From Bacillus sp. F19 (GTDB lineage Bacteria; Bacillota; Bacilli; Bacillales; Bacillaceae): a stretch of DNA of 64,000 bases. The stretch is from NCBI GenBank assembly GCA_023823795.1, contig CP085710.1:646001-710000 (forward strand). The letters run 5' to 3'. The translations under genes were made by a program, and so were the position numbers. The notes beneath the pieces are model-generated. The model did no database searches. It had not been told where the DNA came from and worked only from the letters and a program-made list of their open reading frames with translations. The first letter of the stretch is position 1; each line of letters starts with the position of its first letter. This document shows positions 1,085-62,035 of this stretch, piece by piece.

Positions 1085-1760
1085 GCGATGCAGCACTTTC
1101 TAGAGAAGTCAGTATCGAGTTGTGGTATCAAAAAGCGAAATGCAGCACTTTCCTAAGCAGTCAACATCGATTTGTGGTATTAAAAAGCGAAATGCAGCAC
1201 TTTCTAAAGAAGAAAGCATCGATTTGTTGTATCAAAAAGCGAAATGCAGCACTTTCCAAAGCAGTCAACATCGAGTTGTGGTATTAAAAAGCGAAATGCA
1301 GCCCTTTCCAAAGCAGTCAGCATCGATTTGTGGTATCAAAAACCAAAATGCAGCACTTTCTAAAGAAGAAAGCATCGAGTTGTGGTATCAAAAAGCGAAA
1401 AGCAGCACTTTCTGAAGAAGTCAGCATCGATTTGTGGTATCAAAAAGCGAAAAGCAGCACTTTCTGAAGAAGTCAGCATCAAGTTGTGGTATCAAAAACC
1501 AAAATGCAGCCCTTTCTGAAGAAGTCAGCATCAAGTTGTGGTATCAAAAACCAAAATGCAGCCCTTTCTAAAGAAGTCAGCATCGAGTTGTGGTATCAAA
1601 AACCAAAATGCAGCACTTTCAGAAGAAGTCAGCATCAAGTTGTGTTATCAAAAACCAAAATGCAGCCCTTTCTAAAGAAGTCAGTATCGAGTTGTGGTAA
1701 CAAAAACCGAAATGCCGCACTTACCAAAGGAGTCTTATCAAGTTGTTGCATCAACTCAAT
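1085..1760. repeat. 52-bp tandem repeat array 1 (13 units)
   Basis: The motif TGCAGC recurs at 1089, 1141, 1193 and onward to 1713 with a constant 52-bp period, giving 13 units. Units differ by scattered substitutions (for example AAAAAGC against AAAAACC before the ATGCAGC core) and the last is degenerate. Because 52 is not a multiple of 3, open frames across the array are by-products, not genes. There are no variable spacers, so this is not CRISPR. Two more arrays in the window (15757-16280 and 40040-40795) have the same unit length. Confidence 0.95.
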
Positions 1761-9298: not shown

Positions 9299-9506
9299 GG
9301 CTAAATCAAAATTTAGAAAATCTAAATAAATGCCAAAACCGGCTAAATCTTTTTAAAATCCGGCTACTAAAATTTCAATTTCCGCTAATAAAACTTCGAT
9401 TTCCGCTAGATATGTACCCTGGCCGAAAAAAATTCATAATCGGCCGTAAGATTTTAAAAATTGACCGTAAAATTCGTCATTTTGACCGTATGGCGGGCTC
9501 AGGCCG
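9299..9506. repeat. 21-bp phased CTAA / CCG repeats
   Basis: CTAA-type cores occur at 9301, 9322, 9343, 9364, 9385 and 9406, exactly 21 bases apart. The series then continues as CCG(T/A)A cores at 9423, 9444, 9465 and 9486. The bases between the cores are AT-rich and not conserved, so only the phase is kept. No gene is visible in 9070-9785. B. subtilis has yhbD, yhbE and yhbF here; this genome has repeats instead. Confidence 0.85.
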
Positions 9507-9532: not shown

Positions 9533-9702
9533 GAATTCTTATCTGCCTGTCGGGGCTGAACAGTCGGTTCCGCTTTTCTCATTGTCTTGCTCCACCTCCT
9601 AACCCCTCGGTCAGAACAAATTCCCCGAAAAAGTCAAAACCGGACTTTTCCGGTGAATTCTTTTCTGCCTGTCGGGGCTGAACAGTCGGTTCCGCTTTTC
9701 TA
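9533..9702. repeat. Dispersed hairpin element, family D (one and a half copies)
   Basis: A segment GAATTCTTATCTGCCTGTCG...CCGCTTTTC occurs at 9533 and again at 9655 (period 122). Between them lies the CTCGGTCAGAACA...AAAAAGTC part. Two overlapping hairpins are possible at 9629-9654: AAAAGTC with GACTTTT, or ACCGGA with TCCGGT. Related copies are at 37309-37425, 44471-44668 and about 63625-63738, all intergenic. Confidence 0.85.
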
Positions 9703-9712
9703 TACAAAAAGA

Positions 9713-15756: not shown

Positions 15757-16280
15757 CACGTATGATTCCTCTTTTTTGGCTCACTCCTGGATTTGGGTAC
15801 TCATAGGGTGCGTATGATTCCTCTTTTTTGGCTCACTCCTGGATTTGGGTACTCATAGGGTGCGTATGATTCCTCTTTTTTTGCTCAATCCTGGATTTGG
15901 GTACTCATAGAGTGCGTATGATTCCTCTTTTTTGGCTCAATCCAGGATTTGGGTACTCATAGGGTGCGTATGATTCCCCTTTTCAGGCTCAGACCTGGAT
16001 TTGGATACTCATAGAGTGCGTATGATTCCCCTTTTCAGGCTCGATCCTGGAGTTGGATACTCATAGAGTGCGTATGATTCCCCTTTTCAGGCTCACTCCT
16101 GGAGTTGGATACTCATAGAGTGCGTATGATTCCTCTTTTTTGGCTCACTCCTGGATTTGGATACTCATAGAGTGCGTATGATTCCCCTTTTCAGGCTCAC
16201 TCCTGGATTTGGCTACTCATAGGGTGCGTATGATTCCCCTTTTCAGGCTCACTCCTGGAGTTGGGTACTCATTGCGTGCG
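15757..16280. repeat. 52-bp tandem repeat array 2 (10 units)
   Basis: The motif TATGATTCC recurs at 15761, 15813, 15865, 15917, 15969, 16021, 16073, 16125, 16177 and 16229: ten units, all exactly 52 bases apart. Units alternate between CTCTTTTTTGG and CCCTTTTCAGG variants. Each contains GGGTACTCATAG(A/G)GTGCG. That core closely resembles the unit of array 3 (40040-40795). It is noncoding and lies upstream of the GH4 gene. Confidence 0.95.
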
Positions 16281-16359
16281 TCTCCTTTCTTTTTTTGAAG
16301 GAATAGGGAAATAAAAGCTTTTGCGCATTGAAGGCGAGCGCAATCGCCAACCTTCGACA

Positions 16360-24574: not shown

Positions 24575-24912
24575 TACCGGGGAGGCCAACTCGCAAAAAT
24601 CACTGGTCAATTAGTGAAAATGCAACTCCAACTCGCAGGAATCCCGTTTCAACTCGCAGAAAGGGGCATTCAATTCGCAAGGCTCAAATTCCAATGAAAA
24701 AACCTCATAATAATGCCTATTTCTAGCTGCCGTTGGCCAGTTAAAAAAGATTCAGCATAAAATTAAAGAGTTTCGGGTGTGTATAGAGCATCAGACATGG
24801 TACCGGGGAGCCCAACTCGCAAAAATCGCTGGCCAATTAGCGAAAATGCAACTCCAACTTGCAGGAATCCCGTTTCAACTCGCAGAAAGGGGCATTCAAT
24901 TCGCAAGGCTCA
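24575..24912. repeat. Family C repeat, left cluster (one and a half units)
   Basis: A unit of about 227 bp is found here and in four copies at 32873-33776. Its second half contains five 21-bp subunits beginning CAA(C/T)T(C/T)GCA, at 24813, 24834, 24855, 24876 and 24897 (and 24587, 24608, 24629, 24650 and 24671 in the first copy). The first half contains CCTCATAATAATGCC. The unit stops abruptly after GGCTCAA at 24913, where the accessory segment begins. Confidence 0.92.
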
Positions 24913-25999
24913 ATGCTTCAGTTTGATAACCGAAGCTTATAAAATGAAAAATTGATACTAACATTATAGATTGGCGCATAAGAAGGTGAATATCACCTGT
25001 TTCCTCCATTAAATTGGTAGCATATGTATGACTTAATTTATGAGGGGACATGGATTTATTGTTTTTATAGGCCTTTGTATATTTCTTTACTAAACTTTCT
25101 ATTGCACGATTAGAAAGGGGAGAGGAAGCATTATGTACTTTAGCAACAAAGACATACTCATTTTCTTCATTGCTTGCTTTGTATCTTTCTTGACGTATGT
25201 CTAGATATGTTTTCACGTCCTGCATAGATTCAGGTACGACAGATACTGTATCCTGTTTACCACCTTTTCTAATAACGTTGATACGATTTTCATTAAAATC
25301 TAAATCTCTTAGACGTAGGTTTGAGAGCTCATTTACACGAATCCCACTACTTAAAAATAAGGATAGGATAGCAATATCACGTTCCTTGTCCCTCTTGAAG
25401 TATACCTTCTTTCTTGGTTCATTCTCTAACTCATTTTCATATTCCTGTTGAATATATTGTAAAAAGTGAATGTCATCATCATTGTGAAATATTTCAGTGG
25501 AAATTTTACTTGCTCGAGCACCAAGAGTCTCTTTTACTTTGTTTACTTCAATTTTTAACATAACATTACGATAGAAGTAGGGTTCTCCATCATCATTTTC
25601 CGTTTGAGTGGTTAAATATTTAAACAGTGATCGTAAAGCAGATATTTTACGGTTAATTGAAACTTTTTCTGGCTTTTTCGTTTCATCTCTTTGTACCTTA
25701 ATATCACGTCTTTGGAGATATTTAAAAAAGTTTTTCGCATCATCCAACTTCAAATTCTCAAGCACGGATAGAGGAATGTCTTTTTTGTTAGATACCCCAG
25801 CAATCTTTTTATCTACTAACCATTCAAAAAAAAGTTTATAGTCGTGTAAATAATTCAAAAGAGTGGAGGGAGAGCGATTGTCAATCTTATCGTCAACATA
25901 TTCACCAACATAGGAGGGCATCATTTTGACCATTTCCATAAGTTTCTTTTCGTGTATCTGATGTTGTCTTGATTCAGCCAAAATAGTACTCCTTGTCAA
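24896..25999 (-). pseudogene. XerS-like tyrosine recombinase, inactive and truncated
   Basis: 367 codons open. The N-terminal SAM-like core-binding domain (about 25-165) and part of the catalytic domain are recognisable: box I has the catalytic Arg in SGIRVNELSNLRLRDLD, followed by the beta-strand Lys in RKGGKQDTV. Box II reads SPHKLSHTYAT, where the family has HKLRHTYAT, so the essential Arg is Ser. After HLLMRQ the sequence leaves the family: the second His/Trp and the nucleophilic Tyr are missing. Both changes should abolish recombination. The frame ends inside the family C repeat. It is probably the remains of an integrase for this segment. Confidence 0.82.
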
Positions 26000-26099
26000 A
26001 AAAATGTCGATTCATGCGTAAAATTCAATTTTTCAGCACAGTTCAATACTATTAATGTAGAAGAATCGTTTTCGTGTACTGCATAAAGTCAATCAGGTG

Positions 26100-26444
26100 T
26101 TAATCCAATATTTTTTGTAAAATCACTAAGTTAATCTCTTGATAATCATGGACAGCAATATTACGGAAGCCAACCATTGCTTTCATTTTCTGCGAAAGGG
26201 AAGAGGGGATGATTCCTTCTGATTCTAATAATGTAAAAGCGTCACGACTATTTTGTGGTAATCCTAGTTTTCGTTCTGCTACAATATGCATGCCTAAATC
26301 AATACTAGCTTCACAAGCTCTCTGTAGGTTTAATACAATGGAATCTTGCTTCGTAAAATTCTCTAAATTGGAAGGATTATTTTCATATTCTTCATGGATC
26401 CGTTTCATACACCGTTCTATGATACTAACTTTGTTTAATATCAC
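26100..26444 (-). CDS. HepT-like (DUF86) HEPN ribonuclease toxin, C-terminally truncated
   Basis: 114 residues with a GTG start at 26444 and no strong ribosome site. The helices match HepT/YutE proteins, including the active-site motif RNIAVHDY (R-x4-H-x-Y). The usual length is about 140 residues; here about 25-30 C-terminal residues are missing after LQKILD. HepT toxins cleave or are AMPylated on RNA/protein partners with the nucleotidyltransferase antitoxin MntA. No mntA is adjacent, so this copy is probably inactive debris. The HEPN motif itself is intact. Confidence 0.7.
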   Translation of the reverse strand: MILNKVSIIERCMKRIHEEYENNPSNLENFTKQDSIVLNLQRACEASIDLGMHIVAERKLGLPQNSRDAFTLLESEGIIPSSLSQKMKAMVGFRNIAVHDYQEINLVILQKILD

Positions 26445-26504
26445 ATCATTTTTTATTGTTAATAATCAATAAAGTCCCTTCTATAATTAATAAACATAAC
26501 GATA

Positions 26505-26930
26505 TTAATTTTCAATCGGCTTAGGCTGCTGGATCACCATATCTTTTTTTGCGGACTCTTCCATTCTTTCTGCAAGGGTTTGAATATAAGATTCTGTCAG
26601 TTTAGCAGGATAGTATCCAATCCGTTCTCGGACAAGGTTTTCAAGAACAAAGCATTTTCGAGTGGCTTTTTCATATTCACTAAAGGTGTATTGCTCCGCT
26701 TCTGTAAACTCGTCTGCTCCTTCATTCATCGCTCGAATAAAGATATACCGTTGATTGTAAATGTCCGATCGTTCCTTTCTAGCAAATTTTAAAAGGAACA
26801 GTAGTTCAACAGTTGAAAGACACATAAGCTCAGGCGTGCCTTTGTTCAAATCAGACAGAGAAGGCTGAGAAGACGGCAAAAGATTTTTTCTTTTTCCATT
26901 TTCCTGAACATCCTCATCTTTCAGCTTCAT
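26505..26930 (-). CDS. Hypothetical protein, 141 residues, plasmid-like context
   Basis: I do not recognise the family. The protein is charged, with a Ser/Pro-rich N-terminus and a predicted helical middle (VELLLFLLKFARKERSDIYN, SEYEKATRKCFVLENLVRER). There is no signal peptide or TM segment. Its ATG overlaps the stop of the ArdC stub upstream by ATGA, so the two are read as one operon on the minus strand. Confidence 0.6.
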   Translation of the reverse strand: MKLKDEDVQENGKRKNLLPSSQPSLSDLNKGTPELMCLSTVELLFLLKFARKERSDIYNQRYIFIRAMNEGADEFTEAEQYTFSEYEKATRKCFVLENLVRERIGYYPAKLTESYIQTLAERMEESAKKDMVIQQPKPIEN

Positions 26931-27094
26931 CTTACAAAAAGAGCAATAGCAATCATACCTATTAATAGATGTAACAGAGCTTCCAAACTAGAAAGGAATT
27001 GTAACCACTCCTGAAACTTCTCACTCGTCATAACCTCTTGAATTCCTTGATCCAATTGTTCTTGGATTTCTTCTAATGCTTTGTTTTTAACCAA
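26927..27094 (-). pseudogene. N-terminal stub of an ArdC-like antirestriction protein
   Basis: A TTG at 27094 with AGGGAGGAAAAAAC upstream opens 55 codons. The start, KALEEIQEQLDQGIQEVM then TSEKFQEWLQFLS, matches the first helices of ArdC-type single-stranded-DNA-binding domains carried by conjugative plasmids. The family then continues with a (S/K)FHxYSxxN segment. Here it changes to SLEALLHLLIGMIAIALFVR, a hydrophobic tail that may span the membrane. It is either a truncated gene or a new short membrane protein made from the N-terminus. Confidence 0.5.
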
Positions 27095-27210
27095 TGTTTT
27101 TTCCTCCCTTGTTTTTGCGCTGTGAGCGATTCATTTCCCTTAAGGGGATTATTTTTCGCCCTTTTGACGTGGAGAACGAACAAAGAGCATAGGCAGACGG
27201 TCAAGGGATG

Positions 27211-27283
27211 AGCACAAAAAGTTTTTTGATGTTACGAATGTGTGGTTAATCAAAAAACTTTTTTGTCCCTTGACTGGCTGACT
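27211..27283. repeat. Long inverted repeat (24-bp arms)
   Basis: CAAGGGA plus ACAAAAAGTTTTTTGAT on the left pairs with ATCAAAAAACTTTTTTGT plus CCCTTG on the right; the left arm carries a 5-base insertion. It lies upstream of the ArdC stub in a gene-free stretch (27095-27536). It could be a plasmid origin or transfer-origin structure, or an attenuator. Confidence 0.7.
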
Positions 27284-27405
27284 ATCCGACTTAGCTTTCA
27301 GCAGGTGGAGGGCGGTAGCCTAGGAGGCTCGGGCGTGCTGGAAGGTTAGCTCGGATTGTGTACTTGTACGATTCGCAGCGCAAAAGGGTGGAAAAAACAA
27401 AATAA

Positions 27406-27431
27406 AAAGCAGCCGTTCGGCTGCTTTCCTT
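27406..27431 (-). terminator. Terminator, minus strand
   Basis: A perfect 9-bp stem (AAAGCAGCC with GGCTGCTTT) and 4-nt loop. On the minus strand it is followed by TTTTTATTTTGTTTTTT, so it ends transcripts from the small ORFs at 27537-28011. Confidence 0.8.
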
Positions 27432-27628
27432 TTAGTCTCTTTTCTTTGCTCGTTCGGTATGGCCGATAGGTAAAGGAAATCGGAATCTAGAGGGAGTTTG
27501 ACTGGAGGGAATTAGTCCCCCTGGTTAGCTTTTTCTTTAATGCCGAAGTGACGCGAACAGAATGATAGAAAGCGTATAGCTTCCTGATCCGTCTGTAGTG
27601 CTGCCGCCCTCCTGATTCATTGCTTCCT

Positions 27629-27730
27629 TTATCCCTTATACTTTGCTCTTTGTAACATTCGGTCAATGGTTCTTCCGTATAGGATGGTTGACTGACATGA
27701 AATTCTCATGATCCAATTAAACGCCATCAT
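27629..27730 (-). CDS. Small ORF c, 33 residues
   Basis: ATGATG at 27730 overlaps the end of small ORF b and opens 33 codons (MMAFNWIMRISCQ, ILYGRTIDRMLQRAKYKG). A second frame of 27 codons starts at 27620 after AAGGAAGC. Overlap and RBS-like sequences suggest translation-coupled small genes, but the family is not recognised and it may be the tail of a decayed gene. Confidence 0.3.
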   Translation of the reverse strand: MMAFNWIMRISCQSTILYGRTIDRMLQRAKYKG

Positions 27731-27857
27731 ACGTTTTTTTCCAAAAGTCGCTTTCTTTCTCCGTTCTGATTACGAATTTAAACGTATTTGTGCCGATGAC
27801 TTCCTCTTTAGTGATTAAAAACCATTTTAAACCTTCATCGAGATTCCTGAACTTCAT
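27717..27857 (-). CDS. Small ORF b, 46 residues
   Basis: ATG 27857 follows an AAAGGGT site and opens 46 codons with an aromatic, charged product (LDEGLKWFLITKEEV, FKFVIRTEKESDFW). It lies 13 bases after small ORF a. The family is not recognised. The composition looks like a real protein, of the kind seen on Bacillus plasmids and integrative elements. Confidence 0.5.
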   Translation of the reverse strand: MKFRNLDEGLKWFLITKEEVIGTNTFKFVIRTEKESDFWKKTYDGV

Positions 27858-27870
27858 ACCCTTTGTTTCC

Positions 27871-28011
27871 TTACAACGTTTTCAATCGATTTTTTTCTTT
27901 TTCACAATACGCTTGAGCCGTTGCTTTTGACCAATATTTTATACCGCCTACAATAAGATCCGGCTGCGGTACTTTTCCTCGATCGTAATATAAATGGAGT
28001 TTTTGGGTCAT
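27871..28011 (-). CDS. Small ORF a, 46 residues
   Basis: ATG 28011 follows GGAGAAAGGG and opens 46 codons (MTQKLHLYYDRGKVPQPD, GGIKYWSKATAQAYCEKEKN). The function is unknown. With ORFs b and c it forms a small minus-strand operon ending at the terminator near 27406. Confidence 0.55.
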   Translation of the reverse strand: MTQKLHLYYDRGKVPQPDLIVGGIKYWSKATAQAYCEKEKNRLKTL

Positions 28012-28165
28012 ATCGTAACCCTTTCTCCGTTAAATATTCTGCAAATTGACTTTGATTTAAATAACAAGAAGGTATTCGAAAAAAATCTAAAAACTCTTAT
28101 TAAACATAAAATAACATTTGTTCCTGCTTATCCCTATAGAACAGAGATATAAAGTTTTAAAAAAA

Positions 28166-28270
28166 CCGGTAACGTATGAAGCGTCACCGGTCCTTGTTAA
28201 TCATGTAATTCATCTAGAGCCAATCTGTAGTTTGTACATGAGATGTTGTCAACATATCTAATTGGCTCTA
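28166..28270. repeat. Two inverted repeats after the subtilase gene
   Basis: ACCGGTAACGT at 28166 pairs with GCGTCACCGGT (one mismatch, short loop), a terminator-like hairpin. TAGAGCCAAT (28215-28224) and ATTGGCTCTA (28261-28270) form a perfect 10-bp inverted repeat around 36 bases. The second could be the ends of a tiny element. Confidence 0.5.
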
Positions 28271-28308
28271 AAATAGTTATTTCAATGCGTACAATAGAAC
28301 TGGACTGC

Positions 28309-31300
28309 TTATTTTTTCGGCTCTAGACCAATTGCACGCAAGAAATCTTCTAATCTTTTGTTTCCTAATTTTTCTTTCGGTTTCTTATTTTTAGGTACAT
28401 CCGGGCCAACTTTCAAGTAGTTCTTTTCGATAAGGCGAATATCCGATTCGTTCACAATGCCATCCTGGTTAATATCTGCCATTTTATTTTCCTTGCCGTA
28501 AAAGGCGACAACCTGTTGGACATCATAAATATCAATCATCGCGTCCTGATTCACATCACCGGCTACTGCAACTGGTTGAGCACCTTGTTTTTGTATATAC
28601 TCACCGACGACTTCGCCCCACGGTGTTTTCGTACCAGGAAGCGTCAGTTTCTGAATGCTTTTCAAGTGTCCAGGTGCTTCGACGACAATTTCGATTGGAT
28701 CTTTCGACAAAGGAAGATGCTTGATATCTACAAAACCGTTTTTGGCAATCGTTCCTGGCACTTTTGTCCCGTCTGTCAATTGCGCGTATGCTTTCGCTCC
28801 TATGATTGAATAATCCATCGTCCAGTTCATATAGAACGCTTCAAGGTGGAGAAAAGATACCACATGATTGTCCTTTGGTATGATTTTATAATGGTTCATT
28901 TGGTTGAATGATGGGATGACAACCGGTTCTTGCTCACCGTATTGTGTATACGTGAATGGCACTGTATTATCTTCGACGTTCATCGTGTCATAGTAGGATC
29001 CGTACTTACCGTCATCATACAGTTTAAATGTCACATCAAGGAATGGCATGTTATCGAAGTCGACTCCTTCGAAGTTAGCACCGCCGCTGATATGAGCGCC
29101 CGCATTCACCATGTCTTTATTACCTGGATATTCAGGGTGATCCTTCACAGTTGGTTCATCAACACTGACTGTTAATCCGTTTGCATCCGCATACTGCTGG
29201 AATTCTGGGTTCACTTTTACGCTTTGGAACTGGAAGAGCCAATCATAGAATCCAACATTGTAGTTTCCAGCCATCAAATCCTTTACGTTATTTAGATTTA
29301 ATGTCATCGTCAACGTATCATCTAGATAAACTTTTTCCTTATCGTAAGATGGTACCACATAAGGTGTGCCTTTTTTGACGAATGCATATGAATAGGATTC
29401 ATTTAAAAGTTCCGCATTTCTCGCCATATCCATAGGTATTAGTTTGACTGTTGCTGGACCATTCTCAATATCAGATTGTTCAATTCCGATTTTTGTATCT
29501 CCGTTTGCATCAAGTGGGAAATCGCCGTTCGCTGTAGCTTTTTGATTGAAGTAATAGTATAGCTTATTATCAGACTGTGTGAAGCCTAAAGGTGCTAATT
29601 TTGCCGTTCCTTCGTCCCATACATTCGGATGAAGCCAAAACGCATGGTACGTATTTCCGTCTTGCCCCTGTTCATCTGTAAAGTCCGAATCACTTAGCTC
29701 ATAGACGCCAGGTTTACGGTCGTCTTTAAACGTCAACTTCGGTAACGTGTTATCGATGATAAACTTTTGATTCGCGACCTCGTATCTCACCGCATCTGCA
29801 TCTGTTGTACGAAGTTTGATTGTATAATCACCTTCTGGCAGTTTCGCCATTGGCTGATTGATGTCTGTTTTTTCATCATTCGGATCGCCGATAAACGGAT
29901 AATACGATGGCGAGAATACTGTTCTTAGTTCCGTATCAAGAGGCGCACCGTTTAAGCTAAATGGTTTTAACGAACTTGCTCCAAGTACTTTGCCGTCTTT
30001 ATCATAGATGATCGCCCATAAATCTTTCATCGGGCTGTTTAATCTGAATTTGATATAGCGAGTTTGAGGTGCCATCCATGGATGACGCCAAGGCATCGTT
30101 GTGATTGCTGGACCCGAGATCTCAACGTCTCCGATTCCTTTTTCAACGAAGCGAGTCGCGAACGGAATGCGATAGTGTTCGTTTGGATTGTCATGGTTGA
30201 CAATGTTCACATACCCTTCATATTGTCCCATCTCTGCGCTCGCAGGTATGTTAACCGTTGCCGTTACATTTGTTGCCCCCCCTGCAGCGACCGTCACAGA
30301 TGCTGAAGAAGTCGTTACGGTTACATTGTTCGCTACTGCGTCACTTACATGTGCACTTACATTATCAATCGGTTTACTATATTCTGCCGAAACGTCGAAT
30401 GTTTTCGCTTGGGTACCGCGGTTTTTAAAGACAATCGTACGGTTTGTTGTGTTTGTGCTATCGTCTTTTTTGTAAACCGCACCAAACGTCAATGCGCCTT
30501 TTTCATACGCGTTCTCTATAAATCCACCATTTCCATCACCTATTATCGTGGTGTCTTGTACCTTGAATGCCATCACGTTATGAACGGCTTCTGCTACATC
30601 TACTTCACCTGCGCCTACTTCGTACACGGAATAGTCGCCGTTTAGTTTGTCCGCACTATTCATCAACGCTGCTTTGACATCAGCCGGTTTGTAATCTGGG
30701 TGTGCTTGTAAAATCAGTGCAGCAATCCCTGCTACGTGCGGAGAAGCCATTGATGTACCCGAAATACGAGCATATGCTTGTGAGTAATCAATTCCTGGTT
30801 CTGGACTGTGGATAAATTCTGGATACGTCGAGTAAACCGATACCCCAGGAGCCACAACGTCCGGTTTAATGTCATAGGTTGACGTAACGGGTCCTCTTGA
30901 ACTGAAGCTAGCCAAATGGTTACCTTCTGTTACTATTGACCCGATTTCAGTAAACGTGATCGACGCAGTTTCTGCTGCTGCTTTTAAGCGTTCGCCGTCT
31001 GCTTTTGACATGCGGAATGTTGGGATAAACCCAATATTACTTGCTAAATAGTTATCGATGTCGCCGTCGATATTGTTATACATGATTGCCGCCACTGCGC
31101 CTGCTTTTTGTGCATTCACAATTTTTTCACTAAGCGCATAGGTTCCACGCGCTATCAATGCTATTTTTCCGTGCAAATCAACATCTTTGAAATCATCCTC
31201 GCCACCTAAGCCAACAAACACAACTGGATACGTTTTATTCGCAAGTGTTTCCACGTGGTCATTGAACCCTTTTCCAAGCAATTTAAAGTTGGTGAACGTT

Positions 31301-32619
31301 TCGTTTCCAACTGTCGCCGTTGCGGTCGGAATCGACATCGCGAAGTCACTTGCACCAACCGTAATCGGAAGCGCTGCTGCTCCAGGTGTGCCAAGTGTAT
31401 ATGCATAATTACCTGAGTTTCCTGCTGCAATGACGCACGTTACACCAGCTAATGTCGCATTGTTAACCGCGATTGCTTCTGCTGATAGTGGATTGTTACT
31501 CGATGCACCAAGAGACATGTTAATGACTTTCATGCCGTCACTAACTGACTTGTCAATTCCTGCAACAATCCCGCTCGAAGAACCAGAACCGTAAGGACCT
31601 AGTACGCGGTAGACATATAAATCAACGCCAGGGGCAACCCCTTGTCCCGGATATTCGACATTGGCTTTCGATTGTGCTGCGATTGTTCCAGATACGTGCG
31701 TACCGTGGGACGTCGGGTATTCACGGCCTGGTATTCCTGGCTTACCTGCATTCACCCAGTCATCATATGTTGTTTCCATCGGATCTGCATCGTTATCGAC
31801 GAAATCCCACCCTTTAACCGAACTCGGGTTAATCTTAGTTGGATCAACGCCTTCTTGTTTTCGGTACCCTTTATACACATCCGTTAAATCCGGATGGTTG
31901 TAATCAATTCCTGTATCTAAAACGCCGACTTTCACGCCGTTCCCTTTAATGCCTTCGTTATGAATCGCATCAATACCAGGAAGTGGGATACTATTTTCTT
32001 CTAGTCCTTCCACGCTTTTTTGTGACACAGCCGTTGGTTTAATCGGGTCGATTGTGACCTTTTCGTCCGCAAGGACATGTCTGACAAGACCGGAATCAAA
32101 CAGTCTCTCGACCATTGTTCCTGGAAGTGTCATCGCTACCCCGTTCAACGCGTTCTGAAACTCATGCGTAATTTGGATATCAGATGAAGTTCCAGCTGCA
32201 TTTTTTGCAGTGACCGCATTGACGCTCGCTTGACGCGTAGACAACCCTTCGATAAATGAACGGAATTGTTTGTGCGCATCACTTACTGCTTGTTTCTCTT
32301 CTTTTAAGGTTGTCTCATCTCCAGCTACTTGTGCCTGCATCACCGCTACTTTTGCCGGTGCTTGCATGAATTCAACAATGACGCGAACAGGTTCCGCGCT
32401 TGATGTGTTGATGTTCGGCGAAATTTTCGGACCACCTATGCTGATCTGATTCAATGCCGCAATTTGTTCTTTCGTCAACTGTGGAGCGCTTGCTTCCTGA
32501 CGAAGAGGATCGATCGGTGTTGATGTCGCTGCCAACACGTTGTACGGAATGACAGATGACAGTAATAAAGCACTCATCGTCATAGTTGCTAAAATGTTCT
32601 TTAACTTACGGTTTGCCAA
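28309..32619 (-). CDS. Large secreted S8 subtilase with PA insert and dockerin
   Basis: 1436 residues from a TTG at 32619, with AGGGGGA 6 bases upstream and a promoter just ahead; an in-frame ATG at 32742 lies upstream of that promoter. There is a signal peptide with cleavage near NVLAAT. An I9-like propeptide is followed by the S8 triad: Asp in VGVLDTGIDYNHPDL (about 235), His in SHGTHVSGT (about 304) and Ser in GTSMASPHVAG (about 621), with a PA domain at about 456-545. C-terminal beta-sandwich modules follow. Residues about 1353-1400 are a dockerin-like pair of calcium loops, DVNQDAMIDIYD and DINQDGIVNESD. No sortase signal is present. It digests extracellular protein. Confidence 0.93.
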   Translation of the reverse strand: MANRKLKNILATMTMSALLLSSVIPYNVLAATSTPIDPLRQEASAPQLTKEQIAALNQISIGGPKISPNINTSSAEPVRVIVEFMQAPAKVAVMQAQVAGDETTLKEEKQAVSDAHKQFRSFIEGLSTRQASVNAVTAKNAAGTSSDIQITHEFQNALNGVAMTLPGTMVERLFDSGLVRHVLADEKVTIDPIKPTAVSQKSVEGLEENSIPLPGIDAIHNEGIKGNGVKVGVLDTGIDYNHPDLTDVYKGYRKQEGVDPTKINPSSVKGWDFVDNDADPMETTYDDWVNAGKPGIPGREYPTSHGTHVSGTIAAQSKANVEYPGQGVAPGVDLYVYRVLGPYGSGSSSGIVAGIDKSVSDGMKVINMSLGASSNNPLSAEAIAVNNATLAGVTCVIAAGNSGNYAYTLGTPGAAALPITVGASDFAMSIPTATATVGNETFTNFKLLGKGFNDHVETLANKTYPVVFVGLGGEDDFKDVDLHGKIALIARGTYALSEKIVNAQKAGAVAAIMYNNIDGDIDNYLASNIGFIPTFRMSKADGERLKAAAETASITFTEIGSIVTEGNHLASFSSRGPVTSTYDIKPDVVAPGVSVYSTYPEFIHSPEPGIDYSQAYARISGTSMASPHVAGIAALILQAHPDYKPADVKAALMNSADKLNGDYSVYEVGAGEVDVAEAVHNVMAFKVQDTTIIGDGNGGFIENAYEKGALTFGAVYKKDDSTNTTNRTIVFKNRGTQAKTFDVSAEYSKPIDNVSAHVSDAVANNVTVTTSSASVTVAAGGATNVTATVNIPASAEMGQYEGYVNIVNHDNPNEHYRIPFATRFVEKGIGDVEISGPAITTMPWRHPWMAPQTRYIKFRLNSPMKDLWAIIYDKDGKVLGASSLKPFSLNGAPLDTELRTVFSPSYYPFIGDPNDEKTDINQPMAKLPEGDYTIKLRTTDADAVRYEVANQKFIIDNTLPKLTFKDDRKPGVYELSDSDFTDEQGQDGNTYHAFWLHPNVWDEGTAKLAPLGFTQSDNKLYYYFNQKATANGDFPLDANGDTKIGIEQSDIENGPATVKLIPMDMARNAELLNESYSYAFVKKGTPYVVPSYDKEKVYLDDTLTMTLNLNNVKDLMAGNYNVGFYDWLFQFQSVKVNPEFQQYADANGLTVSVDEPTVKDHPEYPGNKDMVNAGAHISGGANFEGVDFDNMPFLDVTFKLYDDGKYGSYYDTMNVEDNTVPFTYTQYGEQEPVVIPSFNQMNHYKIIPKDNHVVSFLHLEAFYMNWTMDYSIIGAKAYAQLTDGTKVPGTIAKNGFVDIKHLPLSKDPIEIVVEAPGHLKSIQKLTLPGTKTPWGEVVGEYIQKQGAQPVAVAGDVNQDAMIDIYDVQQVVAFYGKENKMADINQDGIVNESDIRLIEKNYLKVGPDVPKNKKPKEKLGNKRLEDFLRAIGLEPKK

Positions 32620-32664
32620 TTCAATCCCCCTATTTTCGTAATCTTTTGAATATTCACAGTTCTC

Positions 32665-32693
32665 ATTATAATTCGAATTATTCATGTCGTAAA
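32665..32693 (-). promoter_or_regulatory. SigA promoter of the subtilase gene
   Basis: On the minus strand TTTACG (32693-32688) and TATAAT (32670-32665) are 17 bases apart, about 45 bases before the TTG start. This supports TTG 32619 over the upstream ATG. Confidence 0.65.
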
Positions 32694-32872
32694 TTGGGGG
32701 AATTTGCATTGAAACCCTCAATTCCATGTAGAATTTTGGCATAAAATATCGTTAAATTTTTGTATAATCTATATTTATTGGGACTTTTCATAATAATTTA
32801 TATTGGGGGAATCTAAGGACGGGTTCATTTTTAATAGCTTCCTATATTACCAGAAACAAAGTAGGGAGCGAA

Positions 32873-33776
32873 AATTCCAAAAAACCTCATAATAATGCCT
32901 ATTTCTAGCTGCCGTTGGCCAGTTAAAAAAAGATTCAGCATAAAATTAAAGAATTTCGGGTGTGGATAGAGCATCAAACATGGTACCGGGGATCCAACTT
33001 GCAGAAATCGCTATTCAATTAGCGAAAATGCAACTCCAACTCGCAGGAATCCCGTTTCAACTCGCAGAAAGGGGCATTCAATTCGCAAGGCTCAAATTCC
33101 AAGGAAAAACCTCATAATAATGCCTATTTCTAGCTGCCGTTGGCCAGTTAAAAAAAGTTTCAGCATAAAATTAAAGAGTTTCGGGTGTGTATAGAGCATC
33201 AAACATGGTACCAGGGAGGCCAACTCGCAAAAATCACTGGTCAATTAGTGAAAATGCAACTCCAACTCGCAGGAATCCCGTTTCAACTCGCAGAAAGGGG
33301 CATTCAATTCGCAAGGCTCAAATTCCAATGAAAAAACCTCATAATAATGCCTATTTTCTAGCTGCCGTTGGCTAGTTAAAAAAAGATTCAGCATAAAATT
33401 AAGGAGTTTCAGCTGTGTATAGAGCATCAGACATGGTACCGGGGAGCCCAACTCGCAAAAATCGCTGGCCAATTAGCGAAAATGCAACTCCAACTTGCAG
33501 GAATCCCGTTTCAACTCGCAGAAAGGGGCATTCAATTCGCAAGGCTCAAATTCCAATGAAAAAACCTCATAATAATGCCTATTTCTAGCTGCCGTTGGCC
33601 AGTTAAAAAAAGATTCAGCATAAAATTAAAGAGTTTCAGCTGTGTATAGAGCATCAGACATGGTATCGGGGAGCCCAACTCGCAAAAATCGCTGGCCAAT
33701 TAGCGAAAATGCAACTCCAACTCGCAAGAATCCCGGTTCAACTCGCAGAAAGGGGCATTCAACTTCGCAAGCAAAA
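32873..33776. repeat. Family C repeat, right cluster (four 227-bp units)
   Basis: CCTCATAATAATGCC recurs at 32885, 33110, 33337 and 33565 (periods 225-228). Each unit also holds the five 21-bp CAACTCGCA subunits. The first unit begins in mid-sequence (AATTCCAA...) at the point complementary to where the left cluster stops. Open frames in the block are by-products of the 21-bp (7-codon) phase. Confidence 0.93.
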
Positions 33777-33922
33777 TTTAGGTGTAAAAAAACACAGAAT
33801 AGATAGAAAGCAGAGATAACAGTTATCTAAAATAACCGGTGAGTTGCCCGTTTTAAAGTAAAAAAAAGGGTATACATATAGCTTACGACAAGAAAATTGC
33901 AGAAGACGAGAGGATACCAAAA

Positions 33923-40039: not shown

Positions 40040-40795
40040 ACCGCTATATATGAGTTCCCAAATACCGGAGAACAGTCCTGTTTGGAGACTCAAAGAGTAG
40101 CTATGAGTCTCCAAATCGAGAGAGAAGTCATGTTTGATTACTCAAATGGCAGTTATGATTCCTGTTTGGGTACTCAAAGAGTAGCTATGAGTCCCTAAAA
40201 TTACGTGAGAAGTTCAGTTTGAGTACTCAAAGAGTAGCTATGATTCCTCAAATCGAGAGAACAGTCCTGTTTGGGTACTCAAAGAGTAGCTATGAATCCC
40301 CAATCCGCGCTAGAAATCCTGTTCGGGTACTCAAAGGGTAGCTATGAGTACCCAATCCGCGCTAGAAATCCTATTTGAGTACTCAAAGAGTAGCTATGAG
40401 TCCCCAAATCGAGAGAACAGTCCTGTTTAAGTACTCAAAGAGTAGCTATGAGTCCCCAAATCGAGAGAACAGTCCTGTTTGAGTACTCAAAGGGCAGATA
40501 TGATTCCTCAAATAGAGAAAGAAACCCTGTTTGAGTACTCAAAGAGTAGCTATGAGTCCCCAAATCGAGAGAACAGTCCTGTTTAAGTACTCAAAGAGTA
40601 GCTATGAGTCCCCAAATCGAGAGAGAAGTCCAGTTTGGGTACTCAAAGGAACAGTCCTGGTTGAGTACTCAAAGGGCAGCTATGCTATGATTCCTCAAAT
40701 AGAGAAAGAAATCCTGTTTGGATACTCAAAGGGTAGATATGATTCCCAAAATTGAGGGAGAAGTCCTGTTTGAGTGCTCAAGGATAACTATGAAC
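40040..40795. repeat. 52-bp tandem repeat array 3 (about 15 units)
   Basis: CTCAAAGAGTAGC-type cores recur at 40089, 40141, 40173, 40226, 40278, 40330, 40382, 40434, 40486, 40538, 40590, 40642, 40668, 40725 and 40777. Most steps are 52; three units carry deletions (32, 26) or a small duplication (57). The core TACTCAAAGAGTA is itself a short inverted repeat. The unit resembles array 2 (GGGTACTC...TATGATTCCTC). No gene is present. Confidence 0.95.
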
Positions 40796-44349: not shown

Positions 44350-44460
44350 ATTTGGCTAAATAAAACCTGAAAATGGCTAAATGCATCAAGAAAACGGCTA
44401 ATAAAGTCAATAAATCCGCTATAAAAATCTCCATTTTCGCTATAAAGAGATTGGTGAAGC
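44350..44460. repeat. 21-bp phased GCTA repeats
   Basis: GCTA occurs at 44355, 44376, 44397, 44418 and 44439, exactly 21 apart, with a CTAAATA at 44314 that is 42 before the first. The rest of each unit is AT-rich and unconserved. It is similar in design to 9299-9506. Confidence 0.85.
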
Positions 44461-44470
44461 GTGCGGCTTC

Positions 44471-44668
44471 AAAGTCAAACCCGGACTTTTCTGGCGAATT
44501 CTTATCTGCCTGTCGGCGCTGAACAGTCGGCTCCGCTTTTCGTGATGTCTAGCTCCACCTCCTAACCCCTCGGTCAGAACAGATTCCCCGAAAAAGTCAA
44601 ACCCGGACTTTTCCGGTGAATCCTTATCTGCCTGTCGGGGCTAAACAGTCGGTTCCGCTTTTCGTGAC
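44471..44668. repeat. Family D element, two tandem copies
   Basis: Two copies of the ...AAAGTCAAACCCGGACTTTTC...CTGTCGG(G/C)GCTGAACAGTCGG... element lie between dctB and dctP. The second copy includes the CCTCGGTCAGAACAGATTCC part. Confidence 0.88.
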
Positions 44669-61894: not shown

Positions 61895-61920
61895 TGTTAG
61901 GAGGAAACTGGAAAAAAGAA

Positions 61921-62015
61921 AGTAATCTGATCTTTCCGGCTAGTAAATTTTATTTTATGGAAAGTAAAATCCTTTTTCCAGCAAGTAAATCGGGTTATCT
62001 GGACAGTATTTCACA
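61921..62015. repeat. 21-bp phased AGTA repeats
   Basis: AGTA(A) occurs at 61921, 61942, 61963, 61984 and 62005, exactly 21 apart. The other bases differ between units. It lies between convergent genes. Confidence 0.85.
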
Positions 62016-62035
62016 ATCCCCTGCAATTTGAACGG

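Follow-up and report, generated by a model that had tools for sequence, protein, structure and literature searches.

Why should intergenic repeats with different cores share one step of 21 bp, or two turns of the helix, and what would hold that step in place? The question is raised by positions 9299..9506 of the window, i.e. the whole stretch of 64,000 nucleotides analysed here (C1:646001-710000 of the source genome, G000, which comprises 5.59 Mb in two contigs). An earlier note, made from the letters of the window, had proposed that sequence-unrelated repeats keep an exact 21-bp phase while the bases between their cores drift, and had suggested phased protein binding or intrinsic curvature. 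This proposal is followed here through the source genome, its genus and more distant genomes.

Arrays in the window

Direct reading of the letters finds the cores where they had been placed, small corrections apart (Table 1). Of the six cores given as CTAA between 9301 and 9406, four are CTAA, while the unit at 9364 carries CTAC and that at 9406 CTAG. The positions of the CAAYTYGCA series at 24813-24897 hold, except that the unit at 24834 reads CAATTAGCG. The arrays at 9301 and 44355, taken for unrelated families, both belong to the GCTA family (F1), and the window therefore contains four core families and not five. Self-match at lag 21 is 0.50-0.68 per window array, compared to shuffle means of 0.24-0.33. 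The F7 array at 9423 is out of phase with the F1 array, its first core lying 17 bp beyond the last CTA. Weaker units lie immediately upstream of the F1 array at 44355..44459, and the leader of array D directly 3' of the terminator of a GNAT gene.

Copies of the F2 array are found on both sides of an island of ~8 kb (24900-32900) that carries a tyrosine integrase, a HepT-like RNase and an S8 peptidase. The left and right flanks of this island are contiguous in G006, which suggests that it was inserted into an F2 array. An interspersed, hairpin-like repeat (GTCCAGCTCCACCTCC ... CGGTTCCGCTTTTC) adjoins arrays at 9540-9710 and 44490-44665, and is found again at the same loci in related species.

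Table 1. Arrays and accompanying features in the window, followed by the core sequences of the array families.
Feature	Position	Strand	Details
GCTA-family (F1) array, six 21-bp units	9300..9425	+	CTA at 9301, 9322, 9343, 9364, 9385, 9406
CCGTA-family (F7) array	9423..9506	+	cores at 9423, 9444, 9465, 9486
CAATTCGCA-family (F2) array, first copy, five units	24587..24691	+	
F2 array, second copy, five units	24813..24917	+	
F2 array copy	32995..33099	+	inside 228-bp tandem repeat
F2 array copy	33221..33325	+	
F2 array copy	33449..33553	+	
F2 array copy	33676..33780	+	
GCTA-family (F1) array, five units	44355..44459	+	between DctP and SDF genes
F3 leader, TTAGGAGG..TGGAAAAAAG	61897..61917	+	similar in six F3 rows
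AGTA-family (F3) array D, five units	61918..62022	+	in six species, missing from two (presence by eye)
52-bp array (second period class)	1088..1734		
52-bp array	15759..16281		
52-bp array	40126..40781		
F1 core			GCTAATAAA
F2 core			CAATTCGCAAAAA
F3 core			GnAAGTAAA
F4 core			TTAATTCCGAGACTTT, tail CCGTATAAATGTGAAC
F5 core			ACTGATAAA; in G001 and G004
F6			lone GATAAAT array, L057
F7 core			CCGTA
Further core			GGCTGATAAA; L165

Core families and structure of the units

At least seven core families have the step of ~21 bp in common. Most arrays comprise about five units as judged by eye, within a range of four to about eleven; in G001, an F4 array contains some ten or eleven units, one of its steps being below 21 bp. 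Between 7 and 16 of the 21 columns are conserved per unit. Outside the units, the F3 leader (TAGGAGn...) is common to the six F3 rows and directly follows a terminator in four of the six (by eye). The TTAGGAGG segment of this leader (61897-61917; also L025, L082, L091, L109) looks like a ribosome-binding site ahead of a very short reading frame, which often terminates within the first core (AAGTAA). Arrays of the 52-bp class differ in sequence from locus to locus, and an inverted-repeat structure of their units, tested against shuffles, proved not to be general.

Periodicity in intergenic DNA of the genome and the genus

The 21-bp spacing is real. With windows, thresholds and a local shuffle picked after inspection of the data, and genes taken as mechanical ORFs of at least 90 aa, lag 21 appears in 22 of 603 intergenic regions of G000 (a 1.264-Mb sample in 20-kb stretches) against one after shuffling, at least four of the 22 (L001, L026, L038 14836, L042 1676) resembling, by eye, unlisted coding or A/T-rich sequence. 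Multiples of the step accompany it in the same 603 regions, with lag 42 in 14 and lag 63 in 6 against none shuffled. Lags 51, 52 and 53 are present in 4, 16 and 7 regions (none shuffled), and lags 20 and 22 in only 2 and 1. In an earlier sample of 464 kb, consisting of the window and 20 stretches at regular intervals, lag 21 was detected in 26 windows against 0 shuffled, 8 of the 26 falling in open frames. Simple duplication, for which the earlier note had asked a correction, does not remove the excess: each region is counted once, so that the tandem copies at 32.9-33.8 kb add no inflation.

A scan of 900 intergenic regions from five species of the genus for five consecutive units, agreeing at least 4/5 in enough columns, yielded 33 regions with period 21, and none after shuffling. 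Period 20 rose slightly (8 against 4 shuffled) and period 22 was found in 0 against 3. By species, observed and shuffled counts for period 21 are 21 and 1 in G000, 8 and 0 in both G001 and G006, and 1 and 0 in both G004 and G007; in G000 alone, period 20 occurs in 8 regions against one shuffled. The step is not exactly 21 bp throughout. Steps of 19 bp occur in F4, where unit pairs of G000, among the matches listed, are 21 bp apart in 7 of 10 and 19 bp apart in 3 of 10 cases; outside the genus, the step is 20 bp in G014 and a mixture of 20 and 21 bp in G032.

Conservation and turnover between species

In array D, comparison of G004, the most distant species, with the other five (19 unit pairs, non-independent, with 20- and 22-bp units excluded) gives identities of 95-100% at core positions 1 and 4-7, 53% and 84% at positions 2 and 3, and 5-53% at positions 8-21, spacers being near random. 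Spacers of this array are more similar among closer species. Three F1 arrays shared by G000 and G006 differ at 1 of 112 core letters and at 24 of 224 others; ten of these 24 changes sit in one end unit past a breakpoint, and a hand count with two end units left out gives 0 of 98 core against 12 of 196 other changes. The proposed drift of sequence under a constant phase applies to the spacers but not to the cores, which in array D are conserved across species. Core conservation is observed at one locus in six species and at three loci in two, and selection on cores at fixed steps is its simplest reading.

Occupancy of a given site varies, as assessed by eye. Upstream of prkA, G000 and G006 have F1 and F7 arrays and the sister species G001 an F5 array, none was seen in G002, G004, G005 and G007, and the contig of G003 starts there. 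Upstream of the SDF gene, F1 is present in G000 and G006, another 21-bp array (CATGAATTAATT) in G005 and a 52-bp-type array in G003 and G007, with no clear array in G001, G002 and G004. Because arrays are absent from some species at a given site, any single array is dispensable. Flanks of filled and empty sites of array D are too diverged to define any target-site duplication.

Helical register, predicted bend and position near gene ends

The A/T tracts of the arrays are in helical register. Their Fourier power at 10.5 bp is 11.3 in 31 representative arrays, against 4.8 after column permutation (the 21 columns shuffled alike across all units) and 3.05 in random intergenic DNA. The 31 arrays were chosen by eye, partly from a list of 57 matches including duplicates and low-complexity stretches, with one further entry without position left out. 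The best-fit A/T period is 10.5 bp in 21-bp arrays and 10.4 bp (52/5) in 30 arrays of the 52-bp class from five species, the latter having a power of 15.95 at one-fifth of the period against 6.24 permuted. Taken singly, 16 of 31 arrays of the 21-bp class and 13 of 30 of the 52-bp class lie above 90% of their own permutations.

The register extends to columns in which no letter is preferred: of 32 arrays, 26 have the A/T content of these columns in phase with the core (p 0.0005), and the mean cosine, 0.39, exceeds the highest value reached by 300 permutations, 0.35. These 32 are the arrays with enough conserved and variable columns among the 36 used. F2 is the main exception, four of its seven arrays being negative. 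At other harmonics the corresponding counts are 22 of 32 (7 bp) and 9 of 32 (5.25 bp); 10.5 bp is the strongest departure from chance, yet not the sole one.

The median bend predicted by a wedge model is 89 degrees per 105 bp compared to 43 in random intergenic DNA and 50 in permuted arrays; the p-values of this comparison treat the 31 arrays as independent, which they are not (several share a family, and D and L091 represent a single locus seen in two species). Phased A-tracts and raised predicted curvature, as the earlier note had suggested, are supported for the arrays as a set and with controls, but the very pair at 9299..9506 is not unusually curved: its two arrays reach 38 and 47 degrees, and are surpassed by 28% and 63% of random intergenic windows. 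Curvature is not unusual in the remaining two F7 arrays and in several F2 and F3 arrays either, and arrays of the 52-bp class exceed their permuted versions in curvature only slightly (6 of 30, p 0.049).

Arrays are enriched near terminators. Of the 31 arrays, 17 have a terminator-like hairpin directed towards them at a distance of up to 120 bp, and 8 have one at up to 40 bp, compared to 20.5% and 10.9% of random placements; hairpins were located by a simple custom script, and random placements come from G000 only.

Arrays outside the genus

A pattern of three GATAAA cores, each gap being free between 5 and 27 bp, extends the comparison to a sister genus. Two 21-bp steps are spanned by 17 of 24 matches in G004 and by 7 of 9 in G001, and two 20-bp steps by 47 of 54 in G014, a member of another genus. 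In G032, of the same genus as G014, there are 99 matches against 0 for the reversed control, with spans mostly of 46-48 among the matches listed. Matches overlap within an array, so that one array is counted more than once; under a simple base-composition model ~0.5 triples are expected by chance per 3.9-Mb genome, and genomes of genus g6 have 0-7 each. In six arrays of G014 with the 20-bp step, A/T tracts are 10 bp apart (power 13-21 against 5-7 permuted), and curvature exceeds 90% of own permutations in 5 of 10 arrays of this comparison. Core and step thus vary by lineage, while the half-step A/T geometry is retained.

Stretches from 20 genomes outside the genus, one each, disclosed lag 21 in one (G028), lag 20 in G026 and G022 and lag 52 in G044. 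The F2 pattern retrieved 115 stretches from genome contigs, and 119 spacings from 80 of them peak at lags 21 (23) and 42 (21), many of the stretches being coding repeats, or near-perfect ones, from unrelated taxa. Among them, L205 of Neobacillus soli is, by eye, the clearest example of an array like those studied here. Cores of TTTGCGA type at steps of 20-21 or 41-42 bp were noticed in L205, L262 (a Metasolibacillus MAG), L208 (Bhargavaea) and L263 (Aerococcus). A reversed control with two AAATAGTCAGA cores gave 14 and 8 matches in G019 and G016 (genus g2), and these may represent a further family of arrays built on a different core. Matches to F4 number 76 in G000 and 0 in 397 other genomes of the class, a set that does not include G001, which also has F4 arrays.

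A phage origin was considered and rejected: six viral contigs match a three-core pattern and none resembles the arrays by eye, five of the matches lying inside open frames of 326-920 codons and the sixth (L316) being a near-perfect repeat in a contig of 27% GC. The sister-genus pattern found no match in the viral collection, and neither the SDF region nor a composed sister-genus query had plasmid matches.

Proposed role and rival explanations

We propose, with a probability of roughly 0.47, that the arrays are mostly bent platforms for a putative architectural protein near the ends of transcription units. An array would be a compact stretch of intergenic DNA in which about five sites stand close to two helical turns apart, each site consisting of a lineage-specific core and a spacer free in its letters, with A/T content mostly in helical register. 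Owing to this register, arrays would tend to an intrinsic bend, and a putative sequence-specific DNA-binding protein might read the cores side by side, perhaps cooperatively, on one face of the bent DNA. The array could in this way fix a loop, a plectoneme tip or a spot favoured by topoisomerase near the ends of transcription units, a putative topological role. Cores that vary by lineage and recur at many loci per genome (ACTGATAAA in G001 and G004, GATAAAT-N6-AATCG in G014) point to a factor acting in trans.

Other explanations can be set against the same evidence. According to one, arrays are selfish or neutral interspersed repeats, non-autonomous, which spread between genes and settle behind terminators where they are harmless, the core being a signal for the copying machinery and the host gaining nothing. 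It accounts for dispersal and for empty sites, such as that of array D, and it is favoured by the occupation of one locus by unlike families in sister species, by conservation of the F3 leader and the F4 tail, which lie outside the units, and by the restricted occurrence of F4 noted above. We nevertheless rate it somewhat less probable than the proposed role: array D keeps its cores in six species despite the drift of spacers, unlike a dead copy, spacers mostly hold A/T in register, and in the five regions checked no inverted pair encloses an array as terminal inverted repeats would. Decidedly less plausible is a wrapping site for gyrase or a nucleoid protein, chosen by bendability alone in a BIME-like role and with no reader of cores. 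The A/T register, seen in both period classes (21 and 52 bp) as well as in the sister genus, would fit, as would enrichment near terminators, but the core letters of array D are conserved far beyond the needs of bending, cores differ by lineage and curvature is not raised in several arrays.

An RNA element acting in transcripts is very improbable. Its position near gene ends would be suitable and a single strand, from an F2 array, is more stably folded than its shuffles (z -2.44), but the remaining 13 of 14 folded strands, from seven arrays, range from z -0.77 to +1.62, and one tRNA excepted, no Rfam match at gathering scores occurs in the window. Palindromic units were not found by a repeat search of five regions or in the fold z-scores of the seven arrays. 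Virtually no weight is given to the arrays being remnants or working copies of a gene coding for heptad repeats, 21 bp being equal to seven codons, an alternative that the earlier note had named and that turns out unsupported. At least one frame is open in 27 of 31 arrays compared to 65% of column-permuted controls, and some arrays translate as QLAKxxx or xxxESLG heptads. Yet the open frame varies between arrays of one family, and three translated stretches have no Pfam match at E 0.01. In array D the coding reading is contradicted, as no frame is open across all six species, two of which have a 20- or 22-bp unit. In G014, the step of 20 bp is not a multiple of three.

Comparison with known systems

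Arrays of this kind are not described in titles or abstract openings of the open-licence literature searched, and the closest systems share some of their features. TIGR-Tas and CRISPR arrays alternate constant and variable stretches, as do the arrays studied here, which differ in being many, dispersed and built on several unrelated cores. TIGR-Tas itself was rejected, with no Nop-domain match in G000, G001, G004 and G014. Two Nop-domain matches barely above the cut-off were noticed in G032 (G032:C1:545361 and 4978858), in frames of 412 aa that we presume could be an IS110-type recombinase. Iterons of plasmid origins are protein-read direct repeats about two helical turns apart, and the arrays are like them in repeat orientation and spacing but occupy many loci per chromosome, with no replication initiator among the 13 window proteins submitted. 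REP and BIME elements are short repeats interspersed between genes, close to gene ends, and may have a role in topology; the arrays have a similar intergenic dispersal near gene ends, but REP and BIME are palindromic while the arrays consist of direct repeats with no bracketing inverted pair in five regions.

Curved DNA with phased A-tracts, and the 10-11 bp A-tract periodicity across bacterial genomes (PMC516772, PMC3940949, PMC7537859; see also PMC3431218), are similar in having A/T tracts in helical register, mostly in intergenic DNA. Intergenic helical periodicity is reported in E. coli (PMC516772), with mention of a submitted study in which curvature peaks downstream of E. coli coding sequences. 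PMC3940949 links A-tract periodicity with bridging nucleoid proteins and calls its role in bacterial chromosomes an open question, and a periodicity database leaves Bacillus unnamed in its main text (PMC5274682). In PMC7537859, periodicity is argued to be under selection, with core motifs other than those responsible for DNA bending, and this weighs against bending as the sole explanation. The signal in these sources is statistical and genome-wide, whereas here it resides in discrete arrays with conserved cores, narrow steps and families. Concentrated in discrete, countable and evolving elements, periodicity becomes a testable question, as cores can be scrambled and spacings shifted. If the arrays are read by a protein, they would constitute a new chromosome-organising system in Bacillaceae; if not, they would be a remarkable helix-phased selfish repeat.

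More speculatively, and against the odds in our estimate, these arrays might represent a bacterial chromosome element of dozens of dispersed "helical rulers" per genome with a fast-evolving architectural reader, in which core and step (20 or 21 bp) vary while the two-turn geometry and an A/T patch at every turn are kept. If that were true, helical rulers would parallel, in their style of evolution, satellite repeats and their reader proteins, as a counterpart in bacteria.
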